Source: a virus
Virus record (IMG/VR): IMGVR_UViG_3300027659_000017
Coordinates: 33,956-97,955 of that record
DNA length: 64,000 bases
Direction: 5' to 3' (one strand)
Positions 3,001-21,439 of this stretch are shown here, in pieces. Position 1 is the first letter of the stretch, and every line of letters begins with the position of its first letter. The position numbers and the translations under genes were made by a program. The notes beneath the pieces are model-generated. The model had not been told where the DNA came from. It searched no databases and saw nothing but the letters and a program-made list of their open reading frames with translations.

Positions 3001-5146
3001 CTATGAATCTAAAGTAATCATCAGAACTCCATTAGTATTTGGGGGAGATACTTATATCAATAGATATACAGAAAAGAATAATATGATGTTCTTCTATGAC
3101 TGGTTGTATGGACAGCCTGATGGATTTGAATACAACTATTATTTAAGAAGCATGATTCCTCAAGCAAGATTTAAAGCAAATAGTATTGCATATGATACTG
3201 GCTACTTGTCTGAGGTATTTAATTTTGGATCACCATCTATACCTGGTACCGGTGCATTCCCTGGAGCTTTTTATAATTTGGATTACTATGTTAATAGCAA
3301 TAGGTTCTATAATTATACAAATGATGTTTCAGAAGGTAACTGGATTGGTGACAGGTACAGAGGTTTGTGGTCTGTAAAGGAAGCATATTTCTATCTTGCT
3401 AATTCTGGTATCAGAGATTTCTTTGTTGAATCTGAAGTTCTAGTTGACTTTAGAAAACAAAGTATATACGAAGGAGGAAAACATTATGATCCGTATAGAT
3501 ATACGGACTATGTTGCAATGTTTAACATGAATCCAGACGTTATGGGAAAATTGAGTGAGTACATTTATGATTACTCACTTAGTGTATCTAAACTTTACAA
3601 CCAGTATTTTTCTGCGGGAAGTACTCAAGGTAAGTACTATGATCCTAATGTAGCCAAGTTATGTTACACATACTATCCAGATAGAATTATCTATTCATTG
3701 CCTCAACAATATGAAGCAATAAAAGATAGCTGGTTCATTTACTTAATCAATAACTACAAGGAATTCAAAGGACAAATCTCTGGAGTAAAGGCAATCAACA
3801 AAAGTGGTATATTCATTACTTTCAAAAATGAAAGTCCTTTGATGTATCAGGGTGTAGATACACTTGAAACAGATTTGAATACTAAGATTACTATTGGTGA
3901 TGGAGGATTATTCTCACAACCACAACAAGCAGTAATTAATGCTGACCGTGCATATGAATATGGTTCTTCTCAAAATAGATTGTCTGTAATATCTACTCCG
4001 GTAGGTATATTCTACATGTCTCAAAATCAAGGAAGGATATTCTCGTATGGTAGTAATCTGGATGAGATTTCTCAGGCCGGATTGAAATGGTGGTTCATCT
4101 TGTACATGCCTTATAGGCTTACACAAGACTTCCCAGACTATCCTTGGAAAGATAATCCAGTAGCAGGTATTGGATGTCAAGCAACCTATGACAGCACAAG
4201 TACCATTTTATACTTTAGTAAGAAAGATTATCACTTAAGGGATGAGTATAAAGGACGTGTGACTTATCAGCCTATGACGGCAAATGGTTCAGGAGATTAC
4301 TTTATACTTGATGGTCATAAAAACTTGAGATATAACTTGGGAGATCCTCTTATATTTGAGGATGCATCATGGACTATTAGTTATGACCCTAAGAATCAGT
4401 ATTGGATTAGTTTCCATGACTGGCATCCGGATCTAGTTATTCCTACTAAAGATATATTTATCAGTTCTAAGAAGAATACTCTGTGGAAACATAACTATAT
4501 CTGTGATGGCTACTGTAACTATTATGGTGTACAGTATGGCTTTGAACTTGAATTCCCAGTTGTATCCGGTCAAACAGTAATGACTGCTAGATCTATAGAA
4601 TACATATTAGAGTGCTATCGTAGAAATGGTAATAGTTGTATTGACCAGCACCATGTGTTGGATTACAACTTTGACCAGGCTGTGATATACAACTCTGAAC
4701 AAGTATCCGGCTACCTTAACTTGAATCTATATCCTAAGAATGATATAAACCAGTCATTGCAATATCCTAAACTAAACGGGAACCTGAGCTCATATGACAT
4801 CCTTTTCTCTAAAGAAGAAAACAAGTATAGGTTTAACCAGTTCTGGGATATAACAAAGAACAGAGATGAATTCCCTATTGGTTCAAACTATCCACCAACG
4901 GGACCAGTAATTCCAGGAACGACAATACTACAAGGTTCGTACTCTTCTGAGAATACTTGGATCACATCTCAAGATGGTTTTACACGTATACTAAATCCTA
5001 ACAATATGGATTACGGGAAACCTGAATTAGAAAGAAAGAAGTTTAGACATTACTTAAATTTCATAAATTTAAGGAGAGATAAGTGTGACAATGTAAACAT
5101 GATTCTTAAAATGTCAAGTAGTAAAAATCAATTTTCTCCTAGATAA
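2..5146 (+). CDS. Large tail/muzzle-like structural protein, 5' end cut by the window
   Basis: The frame is open from the first bases of the window. The first possible initiator inside it is a TTG at 29, but codons upstream (G-Q-R-I-T-S-E-I-G) run on without a stop and fit the downstream sequence, so the true start lies outside. At least 1714 residues are visible. The protein is rich in Tyr, Asn, Asp and Gly, lacks long coiled coils and has few Lys, which suits a beta-rich structural protein. The segment near nt 3030-3110 contains a GGDTYINRYTEKN motif followed by aromatic residues, which I associate with large tail proteins of crAss-like phages. I infer a tail or muzzle-type virion component because it sits immediately before the injected-type giants, but I cannot name it exactly. 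Its TAA stop overlaps the next ATG by one base (TAATG), suggesting translational coupling. Confidence 0.6.
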   Translation, partial: GQRITSEIGLYEEDICKYREIVQDPCLNFDKRYLISGASREKEDCTWQVYWVDAFNPDRFLNVGDPQTWPDASYNWVGGGANSMNYYSNGSDSTFLWPGVNWNKNITVINDCDFVTNTNTLNCDHIRLARLMETPCLNLTLGQSGGTMANGTYFAMIAYCIKGQKVTDWFSQSNFQFIYNVNDLSGSLTLEVNADSENFDEFILAIVEATNQQTVASQMGFYSTKTTRIAIDQINIATVKIPLEQLPITTPVYETSDQMTDVNGYLLRVGPRSKFDFNYQPLANMIRAKWASVEYPADYYMKGGNKTNYLRDEVYTFYIRWVYDTGDKSASYHIPGRAPRSFNVPGIGSRFETEALIDPNALTIDDQVFEVYNTASITPGGLTGTTTDDGGTVIAVGDMGYWQSSERYPDNRPDIWNPSEYCWTGAAAQNGSFDLCGKNIRHHKFPENFIANSTSTDAVHFRPNANIPTNGQDFAIRLMGVYFENITLPKDQQGKDIPGIVGYEILRGSREGNKTIVAKGMVNNFRTFQLRGKLAQGRTGLYANYPYNTIVPIGSSTDPDDHNYLYNDPYIKNEDSDNNVVNQSIPSDIFTFHSPDTMFRTPYLSTTEFKSYGILSGYADLEFQEPNGHPNWKLLANAVVFPMIVGGVAEAIISMLGKRTVNTPKVLSYTEQYRGLAGVGPIIFASGSSTIQSSTAQNTALGLIGTAATAYNTFVNNYYNGPATLDVGLMLALGYSGTLYEGALSNYVNVVNTNANSAGIPKIAKLEGSFEFPKWAYLDPVTRLLGAANQIAYYFAEGADIALKVFYAITPYRQYALQQVSHGFYGNMFPTSANALKRFDIDDSFYIRDNIQEVSKYQDVVSGVYRTYSINNLKRSDAVVVRTKSGPYYNPAYPTGVNIGPNLITSGMRDVSLITLGGVVQYDSSAAFLTNDLPTFDDDKKDIPFSLSIASHYGGLKTRVRNQYGQVGSENEIVITTCEQRLKDYTLAETSWTCPIDSIFYESKVIIRTPLVFGGDTYINRYTEKNNMMFFYDWLYGQPDGFEYNYYLRSMIPQARFKANSIAYDTGYLSEVFNFGSPSIPGTGAFPGAFYNLDYYVNSNRFYNYTNDVSEGNWIGDRYRGLWSVKEAYFYLANSGIRDFFVESEVLVDFRKQSIYEGGKHYDPYRYTDYVAMFNMNPDVMGKLSEYIYDYSLSVSKLYNQYFSAGSTQGKYYDPNVAKLCYTYYPDRIIYSLPQQYEAIKDSWFIYLINNYKEFKGQISGVKAINKSGIFITFKNESPLMYQGVDTLETDLNTKITIGDGGLFSQPQQAVINADRAYEYGSSQNRLSVISTPVGIFYMSQNQGRIFSYGSNLDEISQAGLKWWFILYMPYRLTQDFPDYPWKDNPVAGIGCQATYDSTSTILYFSKKDYHLRDEYKGRVTYQPMTANGSGDYFILDGHKNLRYNLGDPLIFEDASWTISYDPKNQYWISFHDWHPDLVIPTKDIFISSKKNTLWKHNYICDGYCNYYGVQYGFELEFPVVSGQTVMTARSIEYILECYRRNGNSCIDQHHVLDYNFDQAVIYNSEQVSGYLNLNLYPKNDINQSLQYPKLNGNLSSYDILFSKEENKYRFNQFWDITKNRDEFPIGSNYPPTGPVIPGTTILQGSYSSENTWITSQDGFTRILNPNNMDYGKPELERKKFRHYLNFINLRRDKCDNVNMILKMSSSKNQFSPR

Positions 5147-8100
5147 TGTATAATAAAAAAGTTCTTATTGATGCTCTCAAAACTCTGGGTACACCTTCTA
5201 CACCTAAGAAGTATAACTTCAATGATGGAGGTGCAAAAAATACTGGATTAAATGAGGTACCATACAAACAAGTTAGTGTTAAGCCATCAAATGTTGCAGG
5301 TAAAGGTTTGTTTGCAGATGAGCCAATTAAGGCCGGAGAAATAATTGGTCTTTCTCATATCAAATCTTTTTATGAAAGAGGTGGTCAGAATTATATGAAG
5401 AGTCAAGAGACACCGGTTGTAGGTAAGTATTATAATCACTCTGATGATGCATTTAATGCTGGTTCTATTATTGAAGGTAACAAAAGATATTTAAGAGCTC
5501 TCAGAGATATTGAAGCTGGAGAAGAGATACTTGGTAATTACCGTGAAGATGATGATCCTTCATTGGAAAGTCCAGATGATTTTAAGAGAGGTGGTTCTTT
5601 ACCAAGAATGCCTAGAAAGAAAAACTCCAGAGGGTATTCTAGAAGTTTAGAAGCTACAAATAAGTTCTTTACTGAAAATGCATTCTTTGCCAAACCTAAG
5701 TCAAGAAAGAATAAAGTATATGATCCTAATTCAAAATACTATAGAAAAGGAGGAGCTTCTTCTCCAGAAGAATGGGAACAAGAAATTAGAGCTATAGAAA
5801 GTCAAATAGGAAATCCTAAAAACTGGACTCTAGAGGATCGTAATCTTTTACAAGATAAACTTAATGCTTATAAAAACTGGAGAGAAACAACTCCAGAAGG
5901 ACAAGCTGTTAAAGATTCTCATAATGTACCAGGTGAGTATGAGGCTTTTATACCTGAGCATTTAAACGGAGCTCCTTATAATACATCAGGTCCAAGATAC
6001 ATAGAAGAATCTATGGAACAATATCCTGTTGGTAGTGCACCAAAAGTATATGGGAATGAGCCGGAAGATTATCAAAGATTTTTAGATTACAATCAAACAG
6101 CTCCTGAAAACAGAAGAGGTTATGAAGAGTATAGATATGGAGATCCAAATTCATATGATCACTATGGTATGTGGGATGCTCTTGGTAAACCAAAAGATTT
6201 TCAAGAAGCTCTTCAAATGAATCCTGATTGGACACCAGATGAATATGATGGATCATATCATGGATTCAGTGTTAATCCTAACACAGGTGTGTTTCTTAAA
6301 TCTGGTAAACCTGGATTAAAACCTGGAGATACTACCTGGATGGAAATAGCTGGACATTATCTTAGCCCTAGAGCAGATATAGACACACCAGTATTTGATC
6401 CAGAGATAGGTAGATTTAAATATGTTCCTAATGAAGAATATATTGAAACAAAACTTTCACCAGAAGACATAGACAAGTACGTAAAAGGAGGTTATATTGT
6501 TGAAGACATTTCTGTACCTAAACTTACTAAAGCTAGAACTGGTTTAGAAGTTATTAAAACAGCTTTACCTTTTCTTAAAAAAACTGCACCAACTATGTTA
6601 GATTTAAAAAATCTTCCAGTTGGTTTTAATCCATCTGAACTTTCATTTCCATTATTAATTAATGGTTCAAGTGGTTTTATACATACTGCACCTAACAGAA
6701 AACTTAATGATAATCTTTTTCATTTTGCAGCTAGCATGAAAAACCCATTGGAAGCAGGAAGAGCATTCAATATAATCAATCAAGCTTTTCCGTTTGCCAA
6801 TCCCTCAATATTAGAACCAGCTAGTTTAAGTCTTGACTCTTTGAATCTTTTATTAAACATGGGTCAGAAACGTGATTGGGATATGAGGTATGCTGATCAT
6901 CATATTCCATTAAACTTCTTTTCTGAACATAATGATTTATTTGGTGATCTTGGTAGTACTAGAAGTGCACTACATCAAGCAATAGGTTCACAGTCTAAAA
7001 AAACTGGTAATGAAATGGTAGATAGACTGAATGCATATCTAAATGGAAGAGGGATACAACAGAAAGCATATCTACAATCACATGCTCCAGGATTAAGACA
7101 AATCATGATTCCTAACTTTCAACTAACTAGAAAATATGCTAAAGGAGGAACTAAGAATAATCCACCTGTATTAGGATCTTTACTTAAAGCTGTTACAAGA
7201 TCTAACTATAATCCATTAAGTATACCTATTAAGTTAGCTGGTGAAAAAATTGCTAGAATAGGTCCTTTACCTTATAGAACAAAAGATGAAATAATAAAAA
7301 GTTTAACAGGTAAAATGGAACCGGCTTATTTTGGGCAAACTGGTATTTATGGTTCAGATTCATCATTATTTTGGAATGACCCAGATGGTCCATTAATGAA
7401 GGATATATATGGTCTAGGTAAAAGAGATTTAATAGCTAACTATTTTAGAGGTATTGATACAGGATTCAAACCAATTGAATATGACTTTAATAATGATCCT
7501 GGTCTACAAGCTGCCATAAAACAGTATGGTCCTTTAAAAGCTTATGAACTTTTATCTCAACAAGCTCATGGTGAACCATTAGAAGATGGTCGTATTGGTT
7601 ATGCATTACGTGTGCATAATGATGCTATGAAAAAGTATGGTTTTGATCCAGCTTTGTTTATTAAATATAATGATTGGGACTTTCATAAATTTAATCCTCT
7701 TGGATCTCCAGAATTTATAAAACAAAGTTATCATGATTTGTTTGATAGATATGGACAAGAAACTATTCCAATTGAAATTCAATCTGATGCTTCAAAAGGA
7801 AATCCTGAATTTATGATGGCAGGCAATCCAGTAACTCCAGCAGATAATATTGGAGGTCATATGGGTTTCTTACAAAGAACACCTGAGGAAGAATTTAATT
7901 TTACCACAAGAGATTTGTGGGGATTCAGACCAGAAGCATACAATAGCAAATGGAATATGGATACCAAAATGAAACAAGGCCAAACACAATTGATGGATGC
8001 TTTTGGTAAACCCTTTGTTCTTACACAGACTAATCCTATTCAATTTAACACATATAAGAACTTTAAGAAGAAGTTCTTTAAGAAGGGTGGTGCTAAGACT

Positions 8101-11013
8101 AATCCACCACTTCTTGGTAATATGGCTAAGGCTATACAAAGAGGATACAGCCCTAACTTAGTAAAGTCAATATTTGAGTTAAGTCAGAATGGTCAGAACT
8201 TGCAAGCATTAAATTATCTAAAAAATAATTACCTACGAAATATGGGTTCTTTAATGGATCTACCTGGAGCTGTGCAAGGTTCTACATTAGACTTACCACA
8301 ACTTAATGCACAACAGATAGAAGCATTACTGCATCAGAAACCTATGTTAGAAAGTGATTTTCTAACTCAATACAGTGGGTATAATCCTATACAATATGAT
8401 GGAGGTTTACCAATTGTTACTGGGGGATTGACAGGTCATAAAACTTCATTCCAAAACTTTGACAGAAACTTTAGAGGAACAGGTTTTGGTAATCAAACGG
8501 GTGGTGTATATTTTACTACACAACCAACTGTTGCTGCTGAGAATGCTCAAATTAGTAGTATGGGTGGCTATGGATTTAATCCTAATACACCAACATTTAC
8601 ACCTCATATTTCAGAAGCTATATTTAAAAATCCTGATAAATTTTTACAGTATAATGCACCCATAACAGAAGAATTGGCTAAATCTATTGGAATGATTAAT
8701 GGCATAGATCCAAGAAATAGTGACACATTAGGACAGCTTGAAATTGATCTGAGAAAAAGTTTTTCAAAAACTGATGATTATAGTGATTATGATTTTGCTA
8801 TGAAATCAGCTGCTGATGCTTTAAGAGAAAAAGGAATTGCAGGTTATTTTGATCCAAGTGGTCGTATCCAAGAAATAGTGGCTTTTGATGAAGGTGATGT
8901 AAATAAAATAAAACAGTTTGAACTTTACAAAGATCTTGATGATGCTTTGATTATGGGATATCTGAAAGCAATTTCTAAAACTCCATCAACACAAACTGAT
9001 GCAGAGAAAAAATTGGTTGCTGCATTTGAAGAGTATCTGAAAACTGGTAACAAACAACAACTAATAGATAGAAAGAAAGGTGGTGCACTACCACCATCTC
9101 TATTGAAGACTCTCAAAGGAGTTAGTAAATTGACTCCAGGTAATGCTTTAAGATCTACATTGTACTCTGCTGTTAATCCAGCTAGTTATAACATTCTAAA
9201 AAAAATAAAGGCTGCACCTCTTGAGCTATACAATAACATGATGTACAATGATACTCGTCCCTTTAGAGTAGGTATGAGTTTAAAACATGGGGCTCCTGAA
9301 TTAAGAGACAACATGTTAGAACATGTTCGTATGGATTTAAACCAGTGGAATAAAACTTCATTGGCAGATCAAATGGCTGCAATAAAAAATGCATATGGTA
9401 GCAAGCATTTGAACACATTAGAAGATATTGGAAGAAGAAGATTAGATTCCTGGGCTGTAGGTTTGAAAAGACCACAGGAGCATAATACTTTAGAACAAGT
9501 GGGTGACAATACATTTAGAATGGTTGACACAGAATATACTCCTATGTACTTAAATGAACTTTACAATGATCTATTAGCTACAAAAATTGAATCTGATCCT
9601 ATGGCCAACGGCTTTGGTTCTGTTGTTGATGATGGACAATTCAGTCCACTAGAACAACTTAGTAGAGATCAGTTTAGAGTTAAGACACAATATTTTGCTT
9701 CTAATCCAGCAACAGTTCCGTACAGATTATCAGAAAAAGATAAGATAGGATATCCAAATTGGAATAGAACAAGACATGCACAAGTTGATCCTATGGGTCT
9801 TTTATCTAAGATGACTACAGGTACGGTATATGACAATGACCGTTATGGAGTAATGGGTGGTTACAATTGGAAAATTAATGAACATCCAGAAGGAATGGTT
9901 TTTCAAACCAATGACCTATGGGATTTAAATCCGTTTGAAAAAAGAATAGATCCTATGTTAAATACTGATGCTCTTAAAAATAAGTATCTAAACATGCACT
10001 ATTACAAACCATTCCAAAACTTTGAAGCACTTCGTGCAGTGGGTGGTAAACCATTTAACATACAGAACAATTTCTTGGTAGATCCTGATTCATTTAATGT
10101 ACTAAGACAATGGGCAGAAGGTGGACCATTAAAAGGGGGTCCAGAAGAACCTATAACAGATTGTCCAGAAGGCTACACATATGATCCAGATAAATTGGGT
10201 TGTGTACCAATGTCAAGTGATGTACAAGATCCTGCTCAACAACATATTTCCAACTGGTGGATGAATAGAGAAATAAAATGGCCTGAGAATAATAAAGATT
10301 ATCAAAACAATATGGAACAGATTCTTCCTACATCAAATCCAAATTCTCCTGTTATAGAGCAATTAAACAATTGGCCGGGTTATGTTTATACTGATAATTT
10401 ACCAAGACCAGATGCTGGAGGTACATATGACACTTCAAAAAAAGAACCAAGAATATTTGTAAGGAAAAGTTTTAGTCCTGAAATGAGATTGCAAACTGAA
10501 ATACATGAAGGAACTTCACATGCCAATGCTCCAGTAGCAGATCAATTATTTGATATGCATAATAGGATTATGAAACAAAATCTTATTCCAATAAATAAAG
10601 ATTGGTCACCAGCACAAAAAGATTTTTACAATTATGTGACAGCACCAGATGAAGATAACTACCACTCTTATCTTATGAATGCCAGAAAGATATTTAATGT
10701 AGATCCTAAACAAGTTGTAACTGAATCTGATATAAATAAATGGAGACAACAAGCTGAAGAAAGTGGAATGATGGATAGAGAGAGTCCTAACTTTAATGAA
10801 GAGATTTACATTTTATTTAAATTCGCAAAAGATCCAGCATCATTGACCAATATATTTAATTACATGGCAGAAAATAAAAATGAATCTGCTGAAGAAGGTC
10901 CACAGTATACTAAAGATGGTGGTAGTATTGACTACGAATTAGGTGACACAGTAGATAAAGCTACTATGGAAAAATTAAAAGAATTAGGTTATACCTTTGA
11001 ACAAATTAAGTGA
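5146..11013 (+). CDS. Modular giant virion-type protein with SET, ART-like and zincin-like domains
   Basis: A 1955-aa mosaic. Residues about 38-137 form a SET methyltransferase-like domain: GKGLF at 52-56, I-x-x-GE after it, NHS at 97-99 and GEEI..NY at 125-132, the usual SET order. A basic linker and a KPKSRKNKVYDPNSKYY segment follow, with unknown modules separated by K-x-G-G stretches near 149, 204, 666, 980, 1311 and 1660. Residues about 1090-1260 resemble the ADP-ribosyltransferase family of phage polyvalent proteins: H1098, GGVYFTT at about 1119-1125, then EIVAFD near 1243. Residues about 903-968 and 1570-1648 are two copies of a recurring unknown module (DLW..P, then GKPF). A Cys pair (C1673, C1686) precedes a zincin-like HEGTSH at 1787-1792; the extra Ser departs from HExxH, so activity is doubtful. 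The functions are domain inferences; the targets are unknown. Confidence 0.8.
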   Translation: MYNKKVLIDALKTLGTPSTPKKYNFNDGGAKNTGLNEVPYKQVSVKPSNVAGKGLFADEPIKAGEIIGLSHIKSFYERGGQNYMKSQETPVVGKYYNHSDDAFNAGSIIEGNKRYLRALRDIEAGEEILGNYREDDDPSLESPDDFKRGGSLPRMPRKKNSRGYSRSLEATNKFFTENAFFAKPKSRKNKVYDPNSKYYRKGGASSPEEWEQEIRAIESQIGNPKNWTLEDRNLLQDKLNAYKNWRETTPEGQAVKDSHNVPGEYEAFIPEHLNGAPYNTSGPRYIEESMEQYPVGSAPKVYGNEPEDYQRFLDYNQTAPENRRGYEEYRYGDPNSYDHYGMWDALGKPKDFQEALQMNPDWTPDEYDGSYHGFSVNPNTGVFLKSGKPGLKPGDTTWMEIAGHYLSPRADIDTPVFDPEIGRFKYVPNEEYIETKLSPEDIDKYVKGGYIVEDISVPKLTKARTGLEVIKTALPFLKKTAPTMLDLKNLPVGFNPSELSFPLLINGSSGFIHTAPNRKLNDNLFHFAASMKNPLEAGRAFNIINQAFPFANPSILEPASLSLDSLNLLLNMGQKRDWDMRYADHHIPLNFFSEHNDLFGDLGSTRSALHQAIGSQSKKTGNEMVDRLNAYLNGRGIQQKAYLQSHAPGLRQIMIPNFQLTRKYAKGGTKNNPPVLGSLLKAVTRSNYNPLSIPIKLAGEKIARIGPLPYRTKDEIIKSLTGKMEPAYFGQTGIYGSDSSLFWNDPDGPLMKDIYGLGKRDLIANYFRGIDTGFKPIEYDFNNDPGLQAAIKQYGPLKAYELLSQQAHGEPLEDGRIGYALRVHNDAMKKYGFDPALFIKYNDWDFHKFNPLGSPEFIKQSYHDLFDRYGQETIPIEIQSDASKGNPEFMMAGNPVTPADNIGGHMGFLQRTPEEEFNFTTRDLWGFRPEAYNSKWNMDTKMKQGQTQLMDAFGKPFVLTQTNPIQFNTYKNFKKKFFKKGGAKTNPPLLGNMAKAIQRGYSPNLVKSIFELSQNGQNLQALNYLKNNYLRNMGSLMDLPGAVQGSTLDLPQLNAQQIEALLHQKPMLESDFLTQYSGYNPIQYDGGLPIVTGGLTGHKTSFQNFDRNFRGTGFGNQTGGVYFTTQPTVAAENAQISSMGGYGFNPNTPTFTPHISEAIFKNPDKFLQYNAPITEELAKSIGMINGIDPRNSDTLGQLEIDLRKSFSKTDDYSDYDFAMKSAADALREKGIAGYFDPSGRIQEIVAFDEGDVNKIKQFELYKDLDDALIMGYLKAISKTPSTQTDAEKKLVAAFEEYLKTGNKQQLIDRKKGGALPPSLLKTLKGVSKLTPGNALRSTLYSAVNPASYNILKKIKAAPLELYNNMMYNDTRPFRVGMSLKHGAPELRDNMLEHVRMDLNQWNKTSLADQMAAIKNAYGSKHLNTLEDIGRRRLDSWAVGLKRPQEHNTLEQVGDNTFRMVDTEYTPMYLNELYNDLLATKIESDPMANGFGSVVDDGQFSPLEQLSRDQFRVKTQYFASNPATVPYRLSEKDKIGYPNWNRTRHAQVDPMGLLSKMTTGTVYDNDRYGVMGGYNWKINEHPEGMVFQTNDLWDLNPFEKRIDPMLNTDALKNKYLNMHYYKPFQNFEALRAVGGKPFNIQNNFLVDPDSFNVLRQWAEGGPLKGGPEEPITDCPEGYTYDPDKLGCVPMSSDVQDPAQQHISNWWMNREIKWPENNKDYQNNMEQILPTSNPNSPVIEQLNNWPGYVYTDNLPRPDAGGTYDTSKKEPRIFVRKSFSPEMRLQTEIHEGTSHANAPVADQLFDMHNRIMKQNLIPINKDWSPAQKDFYNYVTAPDEDNYHSYLMNARKIFNVDPKQVVTESDINKWRQQAEESGMMDRESPNFNEEIYILFKFAKDPASLTNIFNYMAENKNESAEEGPQYTKDGGSIDYELGDTVDKATMEKLKELGYTFEQIK

Positions 11014-14000
11014 TGGCAAAATATAGAATAACAAGTATTCCTCAATCATTACCACAAGCTCGTAAAGGAGGGTCATTAAAGTACAAGAAAGCAAAATCTG
11101 GTAAATTAAAAAATTTCTTCTTTGGTAATGAAGGTGATTATGATAATATTGCCATGGATATGTTCAATACGGATATGATGAATGGATCTCCTAGAACTGC
11201 TGCCGGTAATCAACCTATGGTAGAAGTAGAAGGTGCACCACAACCATCATACTGGAATATGCAGCAAGGATGTCCTCCTGGAAAATTCTCTTACAATGGT
11301 CAATGTTTTACAGAAGCCGAGTATGTAGAGTATTCTAAAAGAGAAATGGAAGAGTACGAAAGAAGTATGAACCAGAAGAAAGCTGCTAGTCAACAAAGAT
11401 TTGAAGGTATAGTTCAAGAAAACCAACAACGAGCACAAGAACAAAGTACTAGGTTAAATCAAGAAGAAACTGAAAGATACTATACTAATTTCAAAAACTC
11501 AAAGAAGTCTGATAAGATAGATCCATACATGTCCATTCCTAATTTGAATATGGATAGAATGGTGGATATGGTTGATCCAGAAGGTAATCCTGTTTTAGGG
11601 GAGGATGGTAAGCCACAGCAAGAAACTTTAGGAGATCAATTAAAGAAATCTTTTCTTATTAACGTTACAGAGAATGGATATACACAACTGTATCCAAAAG
11701 ATATTGTCCATGACAGAATCGTTAAGCATGGTTTTCAAGCCGATCAGTTTAAGAATATCTGGGGATTAGATCCTAAACAAGTTAAAGAACAACTTGGAGA
11801 TATAATGAAACTGGCTGATGAACAGTACACTAATACTGTTTTGAACAAGGTTGCTAAAACTGCTATAGAAGAAGGTAAGTCACCGGAAGAAGTAATCAAA
11901 TCTTTACCTACATCATGGGGAGGAAGTGAATTGACTAAATATATTAAGCCATCTCAAGAAGAGGTTGATAAAATCTATTCTGAATTTGTTAAACAAAGTT
12001 TAGAAGGTCTTCAAAAACAAATAGGTGTTAAGGAAGAGGATGGAATGCTGCGGTATGACAGAAGTAAAAAAGCAGATAAACCAAAACTTGATTTTGATTT
12101 TGAAAGTGATATCTATTTAAATGCATATGATGATGATGGTACTTTAACAGCACAAGAAGTAGATCCTGTAAAAGCATATGCTCAGAAGTGGATAGCTTCA
12201 GGAAAGACTGCTAAAGAAAGATATGAAAGACAAATGCAAGTTGATGCTATCAACCGTAAAGATTATTCAAAAACATATGATGAAGCAGTTAAAAATGATA
12301 AAACATTTAAAGAAACATTTAATATAGATGATATTAATTTAAATGCATCCGGAGAGGATATAAATAATATGCCTCCTTCAGATAGAATGCAAACACTTAA
12401 ACTTAATGAGACACGTAGACTTAATGAGATCAATCAAAGCAATTCTGAGAGAGCTGAAGAAAATATAGGAGATAATGCTGTACAAACTAAACGTACTGAA
12501 GATTTAATAAAACTTACAGGTTTTACAGATGACTTTAATAAATTTATGCAAGAACGGCAACGTTTAACTATGTATGGTGTATATAAAAATGCATTAACAG
12601 ATTCAGGAATATCCTATGCAGATAAAGCTAAAGTTCTACAACATCTCAATGACAACAAAGGTGACTTAGCATATAACTATTTGTTTGACAGAAGCCGTGA
12701 TGCTTCTGATCCCTTATCACAAAATAATTATAATTCTGAACTAGGTAGCTTAATGGGTGGAGAAGGTTATGGAAATCTTTTGACACAGCCAAAAATTCAA
12801 CAAGGAAAAGCTCCAGGTGCCGATATTGGTGTAGGTGCTAAAACATGGGATGTCTTAACCAATTGGGGTGATGCTGCTTATCATGGATTAAATGCTTTTA
12901 TAGGTAATAAAGATTTTAGTGATAACATGTGGAGTATTCCAGGTAAATCTTTAAATGAAGTAAAAGCTGATGAAGAAAGATTAGGTATAGATCTAAGAGG
13001 TAACGATCAATTTAATGCTTCACTTGTACCTGAACTTTTAAATAAGTTAAATCCTTTGCATGCAGTAGATGAAATCTATAGAGGTTATAAAAGAAATGGA
13101 CTTAAAGGAGCTTCATCTAAAGCAAGTAAAGCAGCATGGGATGCTACTGAAACTGCAGCAATGTTTATTCCAGGGGGTCAAGGAATTAAATTACTACGTC
13201 AAGCATCTCTATTAAACAATACTCTAAATAAAGGTAGTCTATTAAATAAAATTTCTAAAGGTTTTAATGGACTACAAAGAGGAATTAATAGTCTAGGTTT
13301 GCCTGGACAATATGTAACAAACTACTTTAACAAAAGTCTACCAGCATTTGCTTTTGATGCAGTAAGACCATATGGTGAATTTCATGAAGGTTTTGAAAAT
13401 TTAACAGAAGGAAAAACAACAGAAGGTTTAAAAAACTTGGGATGGGGAACACTTGGTATAACTCCATATATAAGTAAAATACCACGTATTGAATACCAAA
13501 CTCCATCAGGTAGAACATTTGGTATTGGTAATACAGGAACAACTTGGACTACTGCACAAAATGAAAAACAATTTGCAGACTTAATGAAATCTAGTACACT
13601 TGATGATTTAAAAAAAGTTTATTCAGAAGAAAATCAAATTGCAGAAGCTGAACAAGCACTTAATAATGGAACAGCATTTCCAAATTATACATTTACACAT
13701 CCGTTAAAAAGACAAGCTCAACTTTCTGATGATTTTCAAAATATGACTAATCAAGAATTTGCTTTCAAAAATTTAGGATTTGCTCCAAAACCAGGAGGAC
13801 CTTTTCAACTTGGAACTTTCAATAGCCCATTAAAATATTCAGGAAAACTCGGACAGTTACAATTTGGTACAGGAAAATTTTTTCCAGCTAAACTTCAGGG
13901 AATAGAATACAGACCTAATATACAGTATGATACTGCACCTATGACTATTGGTTTTAGAAATGGAGGTTCTATTCCTAAAGCTAATGTAGGTATGATTGTT

Positions 14001-17000
14001 AGTGGACTGCAAAGTTTAGGTAACCCTACAAAGATGAAAACTGGTGGAGCATTACCACCACCTAACTTAGGTAAGATAGTAAAGGTAGCAAACAGTTTAG
14101 CAATTCCTACAAAACAGATGGTAAAGTCGTTACCAAGTATGGGTAATCAACCTGGTTTAGAATGGTTACAAAGGTGGTATTCAAGTCCAGAGTTAGCAAC
14201 AAGAATTTCAAACACTATTGATCCATCTTCTGCTTTTGATCTTAAAAAACATAGTGTTTCTTTAGAAAAGTTAATGGCAGCACAGCCTAAAACATATTCT
14301 CAATTAGCAGCAAAAAACGGTTTACTACAAACTATTCCTTATTATATAGGGACAGGTGGTTTGTACTCAGGTGGTAATTTATATATCAATCGTCTTTTAT
14401 CTAAAGCAAATCAAGAGTCTTTTACAGCTCATGAAGGAACTCATTTATATGATGATCCAAGACATGCTGTAACCCAACCAACGGTAACACAAGAATGGAT
14501 AGGACCTGATGGACAGAGAAGAGTTCAATTTGATGAAAATTCACTTGTCCAAGATGATTATCATTTAGATGCAAATGGAAGACCTACCTTTTTTAATCAA
14601 AAAGAAACCGAAATGTTATTAAAACCTTTTGGTCTTTCTAAACCTCCTTTGTATCCAAACAAAATGGATCTTTTTGGTAATGATTATTTTAGAAGATACT
14701 ATACACATCCAGATGAAATTCATGCTAGAATGAACCAAGGTAGATTTATGCTTAATAAATCTCCAGAAGATCCTTTTACATTAGATGATTTTAATAAAGT
14801 ACAAACTTTAGAGGACTGGTTTGGAATGGGTAAACATATAACAGATAAAAATGCTTTTCTGGATTTGATGAATAAATTCTATGGAGTTGTCCCTGCTGCA
14901 ATAGTAGGTTCTCAACTACTAGATGAAGACACAGAACAAAGAAAAAAAGGAGGATCTACACCAAAAGCTAAAGCAAATCCACCAAGAGTATTGGGAAGAA
15001 CAGTTCAAAGTATTAGTAGTATGTTGAAACCTACTTCTCAATTTAGAACTACCATGAATGCATTAGAAAATTTTGGAAGTACTTTACCTACAAATATGTC
15101 TCTTTTGAATTCAGTTGCTAAACCATTCCAAGGTATTAATAATCCTGTCATGGATTTAAATGTACAAGGCTTACTGAAGTCTCCAACTGATTTGGGTGGT
15201 ACAGGAATAATAGGTTATGGAGATGACATACATAAAGGTGATCCATGGTATCAAATAGATCCTGCAGATTATGGAGGAAGTGAGACATGGAGACAAGAAG
15301 GAAGAACTGATGCTGAAGGATCTATAGAAAGATATCTTGGTAATCTAAAACCATATGGACCGGATGCATTTAATAATATAGGAAACTTTGATTTTGAGAT
15401 AGGATCAGATGGATGGAAAGCAAGAAATGCAATGATGGGAATGGCCAGTCCACTGTACCAACCTCAGAAAACTCTAGGCACAGGAGATTTTTATACATTT
15501 GATGAGTTCAGTAATTTAGTTCAAAAACAAACACAGTATTTAAATGATAGAGCTGCTTTTGATGAAATGTATCCTGAAGACCCAGGTATGAGAATGTGGA
15601 ATGCTTTACGTGGTGATACACAAAGAGATGAAATGTTTGCTAATTTATTTCCCAATTCTGGTATACAAAACTTTAAACAAAAGTTTTATACTCCAGAACT
15701 TTTAGATCTTATGAAAAAAACAGATCGAGATGAAAAAGGTAGAAATTTATATGATCAATTGGTAAGTAATACAAACATGGGTGATAATAAAATGTTAAAC
15801 ATGAGGTCTTTAAATAGTGTAACAAAAGGAGAAGATACTTTACCTTCTACATACAAAGACTTAGTTGAGTACTTAAAACCTGATAGTTATTTATATACGG
15901 CTCCAGCTAAAGAGGTTGTTGGTGAAATGAGAGGAAGTCTTGGACTAAAATTAGAAGACATTAATAATGCTACACCAGAGCAACTTGAAAAATGGAAACA
16001 AGAAATTATTAAAAAAATGTATGAACAAGCTAAAGAAAGATGGGACAAAGATTCAACTATTCCTTTATCTGGTTATGATGCATATGAAAAATTCTTTAGT
16101 AGGTCAGGTTCTAAGAATAAACTTGGAGGAGCTATACCAAAAGCACGACTGGGGTTAAGTGTAATTGGAAAGAATGTAAATAACATAGAAAACATTCTTA
16201 ATGGTACAGCTAAATCAACAAATCTATTAAGACTAGTTGATAGAGCTATTACTCCGGTTGGTTATGGAATAGTTGGAAAAATGTTAGCATCTCCATTTAC
16301 TTATATTAAACCTTATGTGCCGCAAACTTATGGTCTTAAGAATAGATATGATGCATGGAATCTATATAATCAAATACAACCAAAATATGGAGGCCTGAGT
16401 CTTAATGAAGATGGTACAGTTGCGGTAAAAAACTTTGATATTTCAAAACCTATATTAGATCAAATAAGAAATTCAGAAAGAAACTCTTTTGAAACTGAAG
16501 AATTCAATAAGATGAATGGACATTTGGCAATTAACTTTGGTGGTGTTCATGGAAATGGTCTTGTAGCTAAAGGAGTTGATGATACTGGAAGACAGTATAT
16601 GGATTTTACTGATACATGGGATTTACACCCTTTACAAAGATTTGGTAATTTGTTACCCAAGCCAATAAGAAATATTGAAGTTGGTCAAGTAACAGGTGGT
16701 AAACCTTTTGATCTTCGTAATAGAATTTACTTTGATGGAGAAGGAAATTATTTTAATCAAGATGGTACTCCATTAATTACATATAGTAAAGAAGTACCAG
16801 GATTTGACTATACAAATGGAGCATTACAGGTACAGCAAAATGCATCAACAAGAAATATAAAAGAAATTGAATTACCAGATAATAAAAATGTTGAGTTTGT
16901 TGCAAGTTCAGGTGTACCTGAAAATGAATTTCAACAAGTAAATGAAGAATTTAATGATGCTTATCACCAGTCTAATTTAAACAAATTAGCTACAATAGGT

Positions 17001-17264
17001 ATTGGTTTGGGAATAGGTGGTATTAATTCATTTATTGATTATCAAAATAACAAACCTATGCTAATGATTGATGTAAGAACTGGTAAGGTTGTTACTGTTA
17101 CAAAAGCTGAGATGGAAGCAAACCCAGGTAGATACATTAGTACCAAAAATCTAAAACGTGGTGGTGCTATTTCCAAAAAGAAAACAGGTGGTGTAGTAAC
17201 TGAGCTCACTAAAAAAGAAATAGAGCAATATGTTAAAGATGGCTATATCATTGAAGATTACTAA
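11013..17264 (+). CDS. Modular giant virion-type protein with zincin (HEGTH) module
   Basis: I place the start at the ATG at 11013, which overlaps the previous TGA (TGATG); a GTG at 11010 is also in frame. That gives 2083 aa. The N-terminus (MAKYRITSIPQSLPQARKGG) belongs to a tag shared with the next proteins. A Cys pair (C87, C98) sits in a CPPGKFSYNGQC stretch. The first ~900 residues are helical and charged. Hydrophobic, Gly-rich stretches follow, then K-x-G-G/NGGS junctions near 983-1016, 1310, 1703 and 2048. Between the first two lies a clear zincin module with HEGTH at about 1140-1144 and a downstream THPDEIHARM that could supply the third metal ligand. Residues about 1835-1912 hold another copy of the recurring DTWDLHP...GGKPF module. 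A possible membrane segment (LATIGIGLGIGGI) lies near nt 16990-17030. The C-terminus, EIEQYVKDGYIIEDY, matches a motif in its neighbours. Probably packaged in the virion; this is inferred from context. Confidence 0.75.
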   Translation: MAKYRITSIPQSLPQARKGGSLKYKKAKSGKLKNFFFGNEGDYDNIAMDMFNTDMMNGSPRTAAGNQPMVEVEGAPQPSYWNMQQGCPPGKFSYNGQCFTEAEYVEYSKREMEEYERSMNQKKAASQQRFEGIVQENQQRAQEQSTRLNQEETERYYTNFKNSKKSDKIDPYMSIPNLNMDRMVDMVDPEGNPVLGEDGKPQQETLGDQLKKSFLINVTENGYTQLYPKDIVHDRIVKHGFQADQFKNIWGLDPKQVKEQLGDIMKLADEQYTNTVLNKVAKTAIEEGKSPEEVIKSLPTSWGGSELTKYIKPSQEEVDKIYSEFVKQSLEGLQKQIGVKEEDGMLRYDRSKKADKPKLDFDFESDIYLNAYDDDGTLTAQEVDPVKAYAQKWIASGKTAKERYERQMQVDAINRKDYSKTYDEAVKNDKTFKETFNIDDINLNASGEDINNMPPSDRMQTLKLNETRRLNEINQSNSERAEENIGDNAVQTKRTEDLIKLTGFTDDFNKFMQERQRLTMYGVYKNALTDSGISYADKAKVLQHLNDNKGDLAYNYLFDRSRDASDPLSQNNYNSELGSLMGGEGYGNLLTQPKIQQGKAPGADIGVGAKTWDVLTNWGDAAYHGLNAFIGNKDFSDNMWSIPGKSLNEVKADEERLGIDLRGNDQFNASLVPELLNKLNPLHAVDEIYRGYKRNGLKGASSKASKAAWDATETAAMFIPGGQGIKLLRQASLLNNTLNKGSLLNKISKGFNGLQRGINSLGLPGQYVTNYFNKSLPAFAFDAVRPYGEFHEGFENLTEGKTTEGLKNLGWGTLGITPYISKIPRIEYQTPSGRTFGIGNTGTTWTTAQNEKQFADLMKSSTLDDLKKVYSEENQIAEAEQALNNGTAFPNYTFTHPLKRQAQLSDDFQNMTNQEFAFKNLGFAPKPGGPFQLGTFNSPLKYSGKLGQLQFGTGKFFPAKLQGIEYRPNIQYDTAPMTIGFRNGGSIPKANVGMIVSGLQSLGNPTKMKTGGALPPPNLGKIVKVANSLAIPTKQMVKSLPSMGNQPGLEWLQRWYSSPELATRISNTIDPSSAFDLKKHSVSLEKLMAAQPKTYSQLAAKNGLLQTIPYYIGTGGLYSGGNLYINRLLSKANQESFTAHEGTHLYDDPRHAVTQPTVTQEWIGPDGQRRVQFDENSLVQDDYHLDANGRPTFFNQKETEMLLKPFGLSKPPLYPNKMDLFGNDYFRRYYTHPDEIHARMNQGRFMLNKSPEDPFTLDDFNKVQTLEDWFGMGKHITDKNAFLDLMNKFYGVVPAAIVGSQLLDEDTEQRKKGGSTPKAKANPPRVLGRTVQSISSMLKPTSQFRTTMNALENFGSTLPTNMSLLNSVAKPFQGINNPVMDLNVQGLLKSPTDLGGTGIIGYGDDIHKGDPWYQIDPADYGGSETWRQEGRTDAEGSIERYLGNLKPYGPDAFNNIGNFDFEIGSDGWKARNAMMGMASPLYQPQKTLGTGDFYTFDEFSNLVQKQTQYLNDRAAFDEMYPEDPGMRMWNALRGDTQRDEMFANLFPNSGIQNFKQKFYTPELLDLMKKTDRDEKGRNLYDQLVSNTNMGDNKMLNMRSLNSVTKGEDTLPSTYKDLVEYLKPDSYLYTAPAKEVVGEMRGSLGLKLEDINNATPEQLEKWKQEIIKKMYEQAKERWDKDSTIPLSGYDAYEKFFSRSGSKNKLGGAIPKARLGLSVIGKNVNNIENILNGTAKSTNLLRLVDRAITPVGYGIVGKMLASPFTYIKPYVPQTYGLKNRYDAWNLYNQIQPKYGGLSLNEDGTVAVKNFDISKPILDQIRNSERNSFETEEFNKMNGHLAINFGGVHGNGLVAKGVDDTGRQYMDFTDTWDLHPLQRFGNLLPKPIRNIEVGQVTGGKPFDLRNRIYFDGEGNYFNQDGTPLITYSKEVPGFDYTNGALQVQQNASTRNIKEIELPDNKNVEFVASSGVPENEFQQVNEEFNDAYHQSNLNKLATIGIGLGIGGINSFIDYQNNKPMLMIDVRTGKVVTVTKAEMEANPGRYISTKNLKRGGAISKKKTGGVVTELTKKEIEQYVKDGYIIEDY

Positions 17265-17321: not shown

Positions 17322-20300
17322 ATGAAGAAGCAAGTAAGGATTAGAAAAGCCCTTCCAGGAGAGACCCCGGGTTACTATAACAAGACTGCTAAGTTTTTAA
17401 AAAAGGCAGCCATGGGTATGGAAGTTTCTACTACACGTACAGATCCGGCTAGAATAAATCAAATATATGATCATGTATATATCTCCTTAAAGAATGATGG
17501 AGATGCAGATACATTATATTACCAACTACTTAATCAGTATGCATTAGATAACAATACAGCATCAATGCTTATTGATTCTGCTATGGCTAAACTTGCTGAT
17601 GAAGGATATGTTGATCCTGATACTGTTAAAACTGAAGATACAGAAGGAGCAGAAGGACAACCACAGGATCCTCAGAAAAAAGCAAATGAAGATGCAGAAA
17701 GAGCAGCTTCAGATGCTGAACAAGAAGAGTTGGCAATGTCCAATGATATTTATGCTGAGGATGAGGAAAGAATGAATGATACCTCACACTTAGAGACTGA
17801 ACAAGCCCAACAAGAACAAGGTTTTAAAACAGGTGGTTATTATGATGAAGGTGGTGAAAGTGAGGAAGATGATTCTCAGTATGTTGATCCTGAGCAAGCA
17901 GCATTAGATCAATACTACTATCCGGGTACTCAGATGCAGAGACCTTTCTCTATGGAAGAGTTACTAGCTAACACACCAGGGGTGCAGAATAATGAGATTC
18001 CAGACATACGTTATTACATGCCTGACTATAATCCTGTGTCTAGTTATTATCAAGCAGAAGATTACTTACCTACAGGAGCAGAGGGAGGAGTCACTCCTCC
18101 AATAAAAAATCTTTTTTCTGGATTAGGTTCTAAACTTACATTACCTATTATTCCAACAGGTAACCCATTAACAAACCTTTCAGCAGCTCGTAAGATAATT
18201 TCTCCTTTTACATTACTTGGAGAAGGTATGACAAGATTGCCATATCTAGGAGCTAAGTTTACACCAAAACTAACAACTCCATTTACTCAGAATAGAACTG
18301 AGTTATGGAATGTTCTTAACGGTGCTACCCCTAAATTAGGAACATTCAGTCAGAATGGTACTATGATTGGTGGAGCTGATGGAAGTTTGCAAGCAGATAG
18401 ATTGTTATTGTATCAGGATGACGTTAAGAAAATAACCGAGAAATTAAAATATGGTGAGAATAACTTTACATTAGGTGACATATATCCTACTGCTGAACAA
18501 GATGGTTTAGTTAGTGGTATATATCCAATGGAAACAAAAATCATTGGTGGAGTAGATGACAATGGTAATCAGTTTTTTGAACTCAAGCATGGATTTGGAC
18601 CAAATCAAAAGTTACCTTTTGGAACAACTTCTACTAAAGCTAAAGAAGTTACATTTAAGAATAGGTTCTATTATAACACAGATCCTGAAACTGGTGGTCT
18701 TAAGATTTTTGATCCTCTTGGTAATGAGTTAATGGCAGGTGTACAAACTAAGTCACATGTTAATAGAGGAGTATTACCTTCTTGGCTTAGTGCAAACCGT
18801 GATGTTGTAGGAAGAGACATGAACTTAAGTGGAGAAGGTACACCATTTCCTAGTTATTTTGATTCAGTTGGAAAATTTGGACGAACAAATAATATAACAG
18901 GACTTCCTCCACTTACATGGAATGATCTCAGCACTAGAGGAAAAATTGGTAGAGGTATTGAAACATTTGCAACTACCGGTCTAAATCAATTCTTTAGAAC
19001 AGGTGCAAAGAACATACAGCAAGTAGACTATCCTGTATATGGATATGCAAATGCTGCATTGGGTCCAAACATTCAGAACCCGGCATCTATTCCTTTTTCT
19101 CAAACAGCATCTGATATTAAGAATGCTATTAACTACAAGTACAGATTAGGATTAAAAACAGCATTGTATGCTGGTATTCCATCTTATTTAGGCTATCAGA
19201 TATATGACTCATTTGCAAATCCATGTCAATGTGATGATGCTAATGAACCTAACTTCATGGCCAAGGATACATTTGGTAAATGTCCATGTGGTACAGATGT
19301 GGGACCAACAAGAGTCTTAGATCCAGAAGCTATACCGGTAGAAGAAAATACTGTAGAACCAAGTGACTTGGAAAGACCTGATAGTATTCAATTCTTAGAA
19401 GGCCAACATCCATCTGACTATAATTACTACAGATACAATGATTCAAATATTGTTAATCCAAATATTCAAAATGAAGCTATAGGAGATGACTTTAAGAAAG
19501 GTGGTGTAACTAAGAACAGATTCATTAAGAAAATGGTTGAGATGTATGCCGAAGGTGGTGATACTGATTTAGGACTATTTGGTCAAGGTAAACGTACAGA
19601 TACCTTAACTGATGATGTTACAAATAGAAAGACTTCTTTCTTAAATACATTAAAGAATAATTCAAACAAAGCAGTATCTGCAGATATCTATAAAAATGCC
19701 CAAGGAAATCCACAGGTTCTAAACATGTTGATGAAAGATGGTCCTAAAGAAAATCTTGCAGAAGATGCATTTGAAACAAATAAGTTAAGCACTGATCCTA
19801 CTGCAGCATATGGGGGATTCATTGATATGGATTCTGATGATCCTCTTACAAAATTTATTTATGGAGGAGATGAGACTGAGTACTATGAGCCATATGGATT
19901 AACTCAAGCAAGAGATGGTATTACTATTCAGAATAGAGCAGGAGATCTAAGAGGTGTGCAAGGTCAAATGGACTTTGATGAATGGTCTCAAGGAGAACAA
20001 GAAGATTGGGAAGCTGCAAATCCAGGTGAAGATTTTGAAGCATGGAGAAGCAGTCCAGAAGCACAGGATTCATATATTAATTACATTAATTTTTATAATG
20101 ATTCTTTGGATGAGTACTTTAATGAGGGTCAGAGAACAAGAACATTTGATCCTAATGCACCTGGTGTAGTGTCTGATACTTTTAATCCTTGTGGTCCGGG
20201 TACAGTTTGGAGTAAAACATACCAAACATGTGTCCCAAAAGCTACAATAAATCCCATCCCTACACCAGTAAGAATGCCTCAAGGTTTATTCAGAACACTA

Positions 20301-21431
20301 GCTCCTTGGAATCCAGCATTAACTGCAGCTGGATCATGGGTAAAACAAAAAGGTACTCCATACTATATCAATGATGGTCAATCATACAATGGTCTAATGC
20401 CTTCAACACCTGTAGCTAGTTATACTACCAAAGCAGGTAGAAATGGTGAACGTAAGAAATGGCTTGATATCTATGAAGTAGATGGTGATGGTACAGGTAC
20501 TGAAGTTCCTATGGAAGATTTAAGTCAGTTTGAACAGATGATGAGACATCGTCCTAATAAAGCTGGTAAGAAACCTAGCCGTAAAGAATATCTTAACTCA
20601 AAGTTGAGAGAAGATTCTTGGAACAATGAAAATTGGGATCAATTATCTGAAAGAGATAAGAGAGCAGCTAGAAATACCTACACATTTGAAAATGAAGATG
20701 AGAGAAACTTGTGGGATAATATAAGATATAGAGCTCAAGGAACTAGATATAGTGAATCTGGTAGAACCAAAAAAGTAAAAGAAAGAAGATTGGGTGGTGA
20801 AAGTGAATCCACTAATGGCTTTGGTAACAGTTCTAATTCATCTGTACTAGACCCATTCTCTGCATCAGGAAATCTATCTGCAAATCAGTCTCAAGCAAAT
20901 TCATTAGGTCAGCCCCCTATTAATTATAACCCTATGGGAGATAATCCTTTTTCTTTTGATAAAGAACAAGGACATACCCTAGGTAAATCTGAAAATGCTG
21001 GAGATAAAAAATATGTAGGTGTTGAACGGAAACGAAAGGATATCTACAATCTTGACCCTGAAGGTATGATCAATGTTGGTAATAATGCTGCCAGAGGTGT
21101 ATTAGGTGCCTGGGATAGAATAAAGAATGCAAAGATTGAGTTCAATAACACTCTAGACATCACAGATCCGTATAATAACTATGCATCATCTTATGATATT
21201 AGAAAAGGAAACTGGAATGACACTGGACATAAAGCAGGTTCATTGAATTATGATCAAAAAGGTTCTGATAGAAATAGTCAATCAACCTTTGGTAGTGGTA
21301 AAAGATATGGTGGTTATATGGCCTATGGTGGTTATACTGAACCAGGATATGAAGATGACGAAGAAGTTTACATGACTCCAGAAGAACTAGAACAATTCTT
21401 AGCAGCAGGAGGACAAGTTGAATATTTATAA
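17322..21431 (+). CDS. Modular virion-type protein with Cys motifs and recurring module
   Basis: A 1369-aa protein. The N-terminus MKKQVRIRKALPGETPG carries the same kind of tag as its neighbours, followed by a helical segment and then an acidic E/D/Q-rich linker (about 105-190). Residues about 406-460 look like a degenerate copy of the recurring module in the two preceding proteins (a GVDDNGNQFF strand, an HGFGP turn, then a KNRFYYNTD strand in place of the usual GKPF..RN). A hydrophobic stretch (ALYAGIPSYLGYQIYDSF) lies just before a CQCDD....PNF....GKCPC motif starting at C635, which is shared with the next protein. A second Cys pair (C957, C970) matches those of the two upstream proteins. 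The C-terminus, TPEELEQFLAAGGQVEYL, resembles the tail of the upstream gene. It is the first gene after the hairpin element, so it may start a transcript. Function unknown; virion component inferred from neighbours. Confidence 0.65.
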   Translation: MKKQVRIRKALPGETPGYYNKTAKFLKKAAMGMEVSTTRTDPARINQIYDHVYISLKNDGDADTLYYQLLNQYALDNNTASMLIDSAMAKLADEGYVDPDTVKTEDTEGAEGQPQDPQKKANEDAERAASDAEQEELAMSNDIYAEDEERMNDTSHLETEQAQQEQGFKTGGYYDEGGESEEDDSQYVDPEQAALDQYYYPGTQMQRPFSMEELLANTPGVQNNEIPDIRYYMPDYNPVSSYYQAEDYLPTGAEGGVTPPIKNLFSGLGSKLTLPIIPTGNPLTNLSAARKIISPFTLLGEGMTRLPYLGAKFTPKLTTPFTQNRTELWNVLNGATPKLGTFSQNGTMIGGADGSLQADRLLLYQDDVKKITEKLKYGENNFTLGDIYPTAEQDGLVSGIYPMETKIIGGVDDNGNQFFELKHGFGPNQKLPFGTTSTKAKEVTFKNRFYYNTDPETGGLKIFDPLGNELMAGVQTKSHVNRGVLPSWLSANRDVVGRDMNLSGEGTPFPSYFDSVGKFGRTNNITGLPPLTWNDLSTRGKIGRGIETFATTGLNQFFRTGAKNIQQVDYPVYGYANAALGPNIQNPASIPFSQTASDIKNAINYKYRLGLKTALYAGIPSYLGYQIYDSFANPCQCDDANEPNFMAKDTFGKCPCGTDVGPTRVLDPEAIPVEENTVEPSDLERPDSIQFLEGQHPSDYNYYRYNDSNIVNPNIQNEAIGDDFKKGGVTKNRFIKKMVEMYAEGGDTDLGLFGQGKRTDTLTDDVTNRKTSFLNTLKNNSNKAVSADIYKNAQGNPQVLNMLMKDGPKENLAEDAFETNKLSTDPTAAYGGFIDMDSDDPLTKFIYGGDETEYYEPYGLTQARDGITIQNRAGDLRGVQGQMDFDEWSQGEQEDWEAANPGEDFEAWRSSPEAQDSYINYINFYNDSLDEYFNEGQRTRTFDPNAPGVVSDTFNPCGPGTVWSKTYQTCVPKATINPIPTPVRMPQGLFRTLAPWNPALTAAGSWVKQKGTPYYINDGQSYNGLMPSTPVASYTTKAGRNGERKKWLDIYEVDGDGTGTEVPMEDLSQFEQMMRHRPNKAGKKPSRKEYLNSKLREDSWNNENWDQLSERDKRAARNTYTFENEDERNLWDNIRYRAQGTRYSESGRTKKVKERRLGGESESTNGFGNSSNSSVLDPFSASGNLSANQSQANSLGQPPINYNPMGDNPFSFDKEQGHTLGKSENAGDKKYVGVERKRKDIYNLDPEGMINVGNNAARGVLGAWDRIKNAKIEFNNTLDITDPYNNYASSYDIRKGNWNDTGHKAGSLNYDQKGSDRNSQSTFGSGKRYGGYMAYGGYTEPGYEDDEEVYMTPEELEQFLAAGGQVEYL

Positions 21432-21439
21432 GCAAACCA

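Follow-up and report, generated by a model that had tools for sequence, protein, structure and literature searches.

Three consecutive proteins of a crAss-like phage (W1, W2 and W3), encoded directly behind the muzzle gene, are mosaics of dissimilar modules that carry a short motif, [KRQA]xGG, which is selectively conserved, lies at module joints and near C termini, and marks sites at which modules are exchanged among relatives. We favour, at about an even chance, a reading in which W1–W3 are capsid-loaded, ejected polyvalent effectors and the motif belongs to a repeated loading or docking tag that doubles as a shuffling joint. The proteins were studied in a 64,000-nucleotide stretch (the window; positions 33,956 to 97,955 of IMG/VR record IMGVR_UViG_3300027659_000017) that forms part of a 97,955-base record; this record, like many of its relatives, is metagenomic and possibly incomplete. 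A first-pass annotation of the window had described three consecutive mosaic proteins with K-x-G-G linkers, and this description held: the open reading frames (ORFs) and all four quoted linkers are present (KKGGAKTNPP, W1 979; KTGGALPPPN, W2 1010; KKGGSTPKAK, W2 1312; and KLGGAIPKARLG, W2 1704), with the motif enriched over shuffled sequences.

Gene order places these proteins in the cargo location of crassviruses (Table 1). Upstream of the window lie the major capsid gene (matching a PHROG head protein) and genes of terminase, portal and scaffold size, the latter assigned from position alone. The muzzle gene, whose 5′ end lies beyond the window edge, is the first of a block that continues through W1, W2, W3, W4 and W5 to the very large ORFs of the RNA polymerase (RNAP) block, with W1–W3 occupying the slot between the muzzle and the RNAP subunit genes. 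The order is the same in crAss001: behind its muzzle (gp44) come cargo gp45 and gp46 and then RNAP-associated proteins, and the virion cargo of this phage includes gp45, gp46, gp47, gp49 and gp50 (PMC10172136). Tandem mass spectrometry (MS/MS) underlies the annotation of the muzzle-to-polymerase genes as structural in phi14:2 and phi4:1, except for one small ORF in phi4:1. Because these syntenic genes are MS/MS-verified, W1–W3 are likely to be virion cargo, and from the same synteny we infer their delivery into the host. The earlier proposal of packaged effector strings is thus well supported, by synteny with virion proteins verified by mass spectrometry and by the enzyme modules described below. 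For W2, an in-frame ATG at 11013, right after the listed GTG (11010–11015), shares one base with the W1 stop and appears the likelier start, as it gives the MAKYRITSIP N terminus of relatives.

Table 1. Muzzle, string proteins, modules, joints and tags in the window (positions are those of the window; L numbers denote loci)
Feature	Position	Strand	Basis and remarks
Muzzle (tail-tip) protein	2..5146	+	PHROG virion structural protein, E 7e-34; slot of crAss001 gp44; 56 relatives
W1, first string protein, 1955 aa	5146..11013	+	ORF; module homologues in varying order in ~40 loci
SET-domain module (protein methyltransferase fold), W1 52–132	5299..5541	+	Pfam SET, E 7e-7, over cut-off
55-residue conserved unit of W1-type proteins (SRSLEATN..VYDPNAKYY..GG)	5590..5754	+	Seen in 40 loci
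Internal C-tag to N-tag-like sequence (LSPEDIDKYVKGGYIVED-ISVPKLTKARTG), W1	6436..6546	+	Read as putative fused gene boundary
Module W1e, fold unassigned, begins at KGG	7144..8085	+	Copies 42–54% identical in L057, L091, L084 and L071, in other contexts
KKGG linker of KKGGAKTNPP, W1	8080..8091	+	Homology edge <=5 aa away
Module W1f, putative ADP-ribosyltransferase-like	8086..9078	+	Sequence pattern; 58–60% identical in L055 and L056
KKGG linker opening next module, W1	9073..9084	+	Homology edges at residues 1315/1316
Module W1g (DLWDLNP...GGKPFNIQNNF family)	9079..10119	+	43–47% identical in L058 and L057; C-terminal part aligns with W2e
Module W1h, zincin-like peptidase relative, C-tag variant at end	10120..11010	+	Homologues in L055, L056, L061, L086 and L087
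W2, second string protein, 2084 aa counted from GTG	11010..17264	+	ORF
N-tag AKYRITSIPQSLPQARKG(G), W2	11016..11069	+	N-terminal pattern shared by W2-type relatives
KTGG linker of KTGGALPPPN, W2	14037..14048	+	Sequence
Module W2c, zincin-like (HEGTHLYDD)	14043..14948	+	Sequence motif only
KKGG linker of KKGGSTPKAK, W2	14943..14954	+	Homology edge at residue 1311
Module W2d, fold unassigned, spans KKGG to KLGG	14949..16124	+	In W2-type protein of L057; in W1-type proteins of L058 and L091
KLGG linker of KLGGAIPKARLG, W2	16119..16130	+	Homology edges at residues 1708/1714
Module W2e (TWDLHP...GGKPFDLRNR)	16125..17039	+	45% identical to part of the L068 W1-type protein; aligned with W1g
Terminal C-tag region of W2, ends GGVVTELTKKEIEQYVKDGYIIEDY	17175..17261	+	C-tag pattern
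W3, third string protein, 1369 aa	17322..21431	+	Relatives in 38 loci; ends better conserved, middle variable
C-terminal tag variant of W3 (...MTPEELEQFLAAGGQVEYL)	21321..21428	+	Aligned C termini of >12 relatives
W4, cargo protein in crAss001 C1 (gp45) position	21440..24883	+	N-tag VRIKKLPKAKTG; 8 [KRQA]xGG sites

W4 ties the block to virion proteins of related phages, as its domain at residues 48–165 is homologous to the virion protein phi4:1 gp40 (E 3e-30). Homology of W4 to crAss001 gp45 was tested and was not significant, the profile matching only phi4:1 gp40, Fpv1 and csAssE-Sib; position and motif are therefore what connects W4 to the solved, portal-bound gp45. Nor did W1–W3 give any profile match to crAss001 proteins, gp45 and gp46 included. 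The W4 domain (21581–21934; ExExgE...ikGprHekGGvplnlpe...Sd), for which no Pfam match was seen, is common to phi4:1 gp40 and the cargo-block proteins of csAssE-Sib and Flavobacterium phage Fpv1, and may serve to mark cargo proteins of the C1 position.

To quantify the motif, counts were compared with within-protein shuffles across the 59 ORFs scanned (P values are per ORF and uncorrected). The strict form, K.GG, was enriched in W1 (4 versus 0.9 shuffled, P = 0.014) and W2 (7 versus 1.3, P = 0.001) but not significantly in W3 (2 versus 0.7, P = 0.16). The broader form, [KRQA].GG, was enriched in W1 (9 versus 2.6, P = 0.0003), W2 (9 versus 3.8, P = 0.017), W3 (9 versus 2.6, P = 0.0013) and W4 (8 versus 2.5). 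The K-x-G-G grammar originally proposed for 16 kb thus stands for W1 and W2, but it is not strictly limited to lysine, is weak in W3 in its strict form and extends beyond that interval. Besides the strings and W4, the only enriched ORFs in the record were a small basic protein directly 3′ of the major capsid gene (record positions 21109–21960, P = 0.0007) and a 3623-aa ORF of the polymerase block (35644–46515; 7 versus 2.1, P = 0.006); the other ORFs of that block, the muzzle and the remaining large ORFs of the record showed no [KRQA].GG enrichment. In phi4:1 and crAss001, the C1-position cargo was the only enriched ORF (gp40, P = 0.002; gp45, P = 0.011), and phi14:2 had no enrichment; the motif is therefore not universal in the order. 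Immediately behind the major capsid gene, outside the window (record positions 19933–22734; L112 2934–5735), comes a series of small, very basic proteins. The same KxGG and PKAKxG motifs are present in several of them, and two, of 112 and 93 aa, fall into PHROG families of unassigned function.

A profile built from 106 string proteins reads aromatic, Met or His at −3, K/R/Q/A at −2, any residue, then GG, often followed by [SA][IL]PKA[QK]xG. In alignments of 25–75% identity, the motif glycines were identical in ~80–84% of comparisons and the flanking residues in 32–36%, below the ~42% average, with glycine identity outside the motif at 60% for other GG pairs and 54% for single glycines. This conservation pattern is characteristic of a short motif that is recognised, not of a loose hinge. 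Its placement is equally selective: among 75 complete string proteins (those truncated at locus ends were left out), 62 carry the motif within 40 residues of the C terminus and 26 carry it in the first 40 residues, where 16 were expected in each case. A 20-residue C-tag, ELTxKEIDxYVKxGYIVEDx, terminates 30 of the 75 and has 34 internal copies, most of which continue into ISVPxLTKAQxG, resembling the N termini of W2-type proteins and W4 (MAKYRITSIPQSLPKAQRGG, MIKVRIKKLPKAKTG). Because the same tag is the true C terminus of those 30 proteins, including a 324-aa protein (L103) that stops at the C-tag where W1 continues, the internal copies are read as probable fused gene boundaries. The C-tag pattern is specific: the other ORFs of the loci, 579,000 residues in all, gave four matches, all in string-like proteins of other loci. 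Both N- and C-tags can still be made out in Leptolyngbya phage Lbo-JY46 (L115 19614–29555). Among cultivated phages, this one gave the muzzle match of highest coverage (90%, at 25% identity), and it is recorded from a cyanobacterium, which would place crAss-like cargo organisation outside the Bacteroidota if the host is correct.

Relatives were gathered with the conserved muzzle as anchor, giving 56 loci; searching with W2 and W3 directly returned no relatives, and module W1e, when scanned against viral contigs, matched already known phages only. Across ~50 related loci, the block from muzzle to W4 is made up of differing modules; it comprises between one and three proteins, each of 324 to 2789 aa. 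By BLAST, modules of W1, W2 and W3 recur in different proteins and in altered order (W2d, for example, in two protein types and W1e in four contexts), the recombining domain architecture expected of polyvalent proteins. Internal homology edges fell near [KR]xGG 243 times versus 124 expected (maximum of 157 over 300 circular shifts; null controls included). A motif-masked version of this edge test was dropped because masking itself disrupts alignments, and a crossing test, which asks whether homologous matches run over a site and is less prone to end attraction, was used instead. Homology broke at 61% of [KRQA]xGG sites versus 40% of random positions, 41% of other GG pairs and 36% of control-motif sites, and at 92% of tag junctions. 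Comparing linker positions across relatives therefore bore out the suggestion that modules are shuffled at the linkers.

Under the tag reading, effector strings would be loaded into the particle and ejected, entering the host ahead of the DNA or together with it. Their units are linked by the short linear motif aromatic/Met-[K/R/Q/A]-x-G-G, with PKAxxG often coming next, and the helix-strand tag ELTxKEIDxYVKxGYIVED closes many of the proteins; if some part of the virion (the portal, the channel or an internal head protein) recognised these motifs, any module bearing them would be brought aboard. Since every unit would carry its own tags, fusing, splitting or shuffling genes there would not cost them packaging, which would be why the joints look like linkers. 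The tag reading is favoured by the position of the motif at ends and joints, its presence in C1-position cargo and in the small post-capsid protein, its selective conservation and the distance over which the tag persists. From these observations, together with the virion location of syntenic genes in relatives and the shuffling, we infer a function for the tag, a receptor, the packaging of W1–W3 themselves and activities of their modules in the host; no receptor for the tag was found, and none is known. Tentatively, crAss relatives might possess a portable, multi-copy cargo-loading code, made up of the aromatic-[K/R/Q/A]-x-G-G motif and the helix-strand C-tag, by which any enzyme could be clipped into a string and injected, the shuffling joint being the address label. 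To our knowledge, no signal has been described by which crAss-like phages choose and load large protein cargo. A tag of this kind, being short, conserved and present in several copies, and having a consensus that can be tested, would provide a handle on this selection and loading; with it, cargo could be predicted from nothing but the sequence of uncultured genomes, and the fast rebuilding of effector strings between conserved muzzle and polymerase genes would be accounted for.

The strongest alternative, to which we give perhaps half the credence of the tag reading, is that the GG pairs are cut sites, after which a viral or host peptidase cleaves, either at head maturation, to trim off targeting tails as in T4, or after entry, to set the modules free. 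A near-invariant GG with free neighbours resembles P2–P1 specificity, cleavage near the C termini would take off a tag of 20–30 residues, and the prohead protease of T4 and SPN3US removes targeting propeptides from ejected proteins (PMC7411985); zincin modules have also been proposed as processors in polyvalent proteins (PMC5512222). However, S78, S49, ClpP-like and C39 peptidases were absent from 16 records, including this one, in searches whose positive controls worked, and HExxH peptidase modules, some of them truncated, occur in just 11 of the 46 relatives whose strings bear the GG motif. In crAss001 gp45, moreover, GG pairs lie within the ordered, portal-bound segment (425–552; PMC10172136), and virions retain peptides located between GG sites. 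A search for PF02902 (C48), the kind of protease expected for a GG-cleaved viral polyprotein of Ulp1/adenain type (C48/C5), matched 0 of 19 records, with control genomes likewise unmatched. Of the protease cut sites first suggested, then, a GG with variable neighbours survives as a possible motif, but the known prohead-protease and C39 families were not found in the 16 records. Loading and later cleavage of the tag could also occur in sequence, as with the targeting peptides of T4 and SPN3US (PMC7411985). If the motif is a cleavage site instead, it points to a GG-specific peptidase yet to be found in phages or their hosts.

We regard it as improbable that the GG pairs are flexible hinges only, that is, glycine-rich domain spacers or aids to unfolding or portal threading whose likeness is compositional. 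The joints do fall between homology modules, and partial unfolding on ejection has been proposed for crAss001 cargo (PMC10172136), but the conservation of GG is position-specific, with preferences at −2 and −3, and the C-tag is specific. The motif also occurs at C termini with no further module behind it, where a linker has no cause to be, and a plain linker is therefore unlikely; hinges alone, as first offered, are not supported, given this point and the conservation of GG far above its neighbours. A DNA-level recombination site that promotes module swaps, with the protein motif as a by-product, is very improbable: modules are indeed exchanged at the joint, but its fourfold-degenerate third codon positions are barely more alike than those elsewhere (0.59 versus 0.54), and the constraint therefore acts on the protein. 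Chance, or the ordinary composition of Gly- and Lys-rich phage proteins, accommodates the non-significant strict K-x-G-G count in W3 alone but is contradicted by the shuffle tests, circular-shift tests and control motifs, and can be practically dismissed.

Compared with known systems, W1–W3 fit the architectural definition of polyvalent proteins (PMC5512222): like those proteins they are very long, combine unrelated enzyme-like modules (candidate zincin peptidases, a putative ADP-ribosyltransferase (ART) and others) in variable order and are likely packaged, with several unrelated enzymatic domains per polypeptide when the strings of relatives are included. What differs is that the W strings occupy a fixed crAss-like cargo block; in the passages covered, the account of polyvalent proteins makes no mention of a repeated [KRQA]xGG joint or a helix-strand C-tag, and its text does not contain the word 'linker' (PMC5512222). 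The giant virion RNA polymerases of phage N4 type, fused to zincin domains, are likewise large, ejected, multidomain cargo, but no RNAP was seen in W1–W3, which consist of many swappable units with a common joint (PMC5512222). With crAss001 C1 (gp45) and C2 (gp46) and phi4:1 gp40, W1–W3 share the slot between muzzle and RNAP and, by synteny, the virion location (PMC10172136), and crAss001 C1 and the W strings are alike in their enriched GG motif; in contrast to the W1–W3 locus, the crAss001 slot holds no effector strings and no detectable W1–W3 homologue. Analogous short peptides, the capsid targeting sequence of T4 (Alt and IPI–III) and the propeptides of SPN3US, take ejected proteins into the head (PMC7411985), but the T4 signal is single, N-terminal and removed by gp21, whereas the W motif is repeated, internal and C-terminal, and unrelated in sequence (PMC7411985). 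A T4-type capsid targeting sequence was rejected as a candidate, given this mainly internal or C-terminal position and the lack of an S78 or S49 peptidase match. We found no description of the GG motif or of the joint-and-tag grammar for crAss-like cargo in the open-licence papers searched.

With regard to the enzymes that the strings may carry, the SET domain is secure in W1, occurs in the strings of 14 of 42 relatives and is the sole domain passing a cut-off in the window's own string proteins. Strings of relatives also hold phage lysozyme, amidase, ART-PolyVal (E 7e-13), GNAT acetyltransferase and metallopeptidase domains. W1f is a putative ADP-ribosyltransferase, judged by its pattern (GHKTSFQNFDRNFRGTGFGNQTGGVYFT) and by the L056 copy, which aligns with nearly all of ART-PolyVal, at E 0.21 only. 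Zincin-like motifs were found by eye in W1h (HEGTSH in place of HExxH, which is kept in the homologues of L061 and L086) and in W2c (HEGTH), for which there was no Pfam, profile or PDB match. PDB sequence searches with the modules gave no credible match, and a PADLOC search gave none. AlphaFold models of W1 667–1658 and W2 1012–2084 were of low confidence (mean pLDDT 41 and 43, from alignments of 8–9 sequences) because homologues were too few. The linkers of the string proteins (L055–L110; for example, L094, L098, L090 and L107) often hold mini-modules with a CPEGYxYNPxTxxCV cysteine pair, and a zinc-ribbon-like unit, CKKCGWxWDAADGGxDITTCHKCGG, was seen in these linkers straight after a GG.
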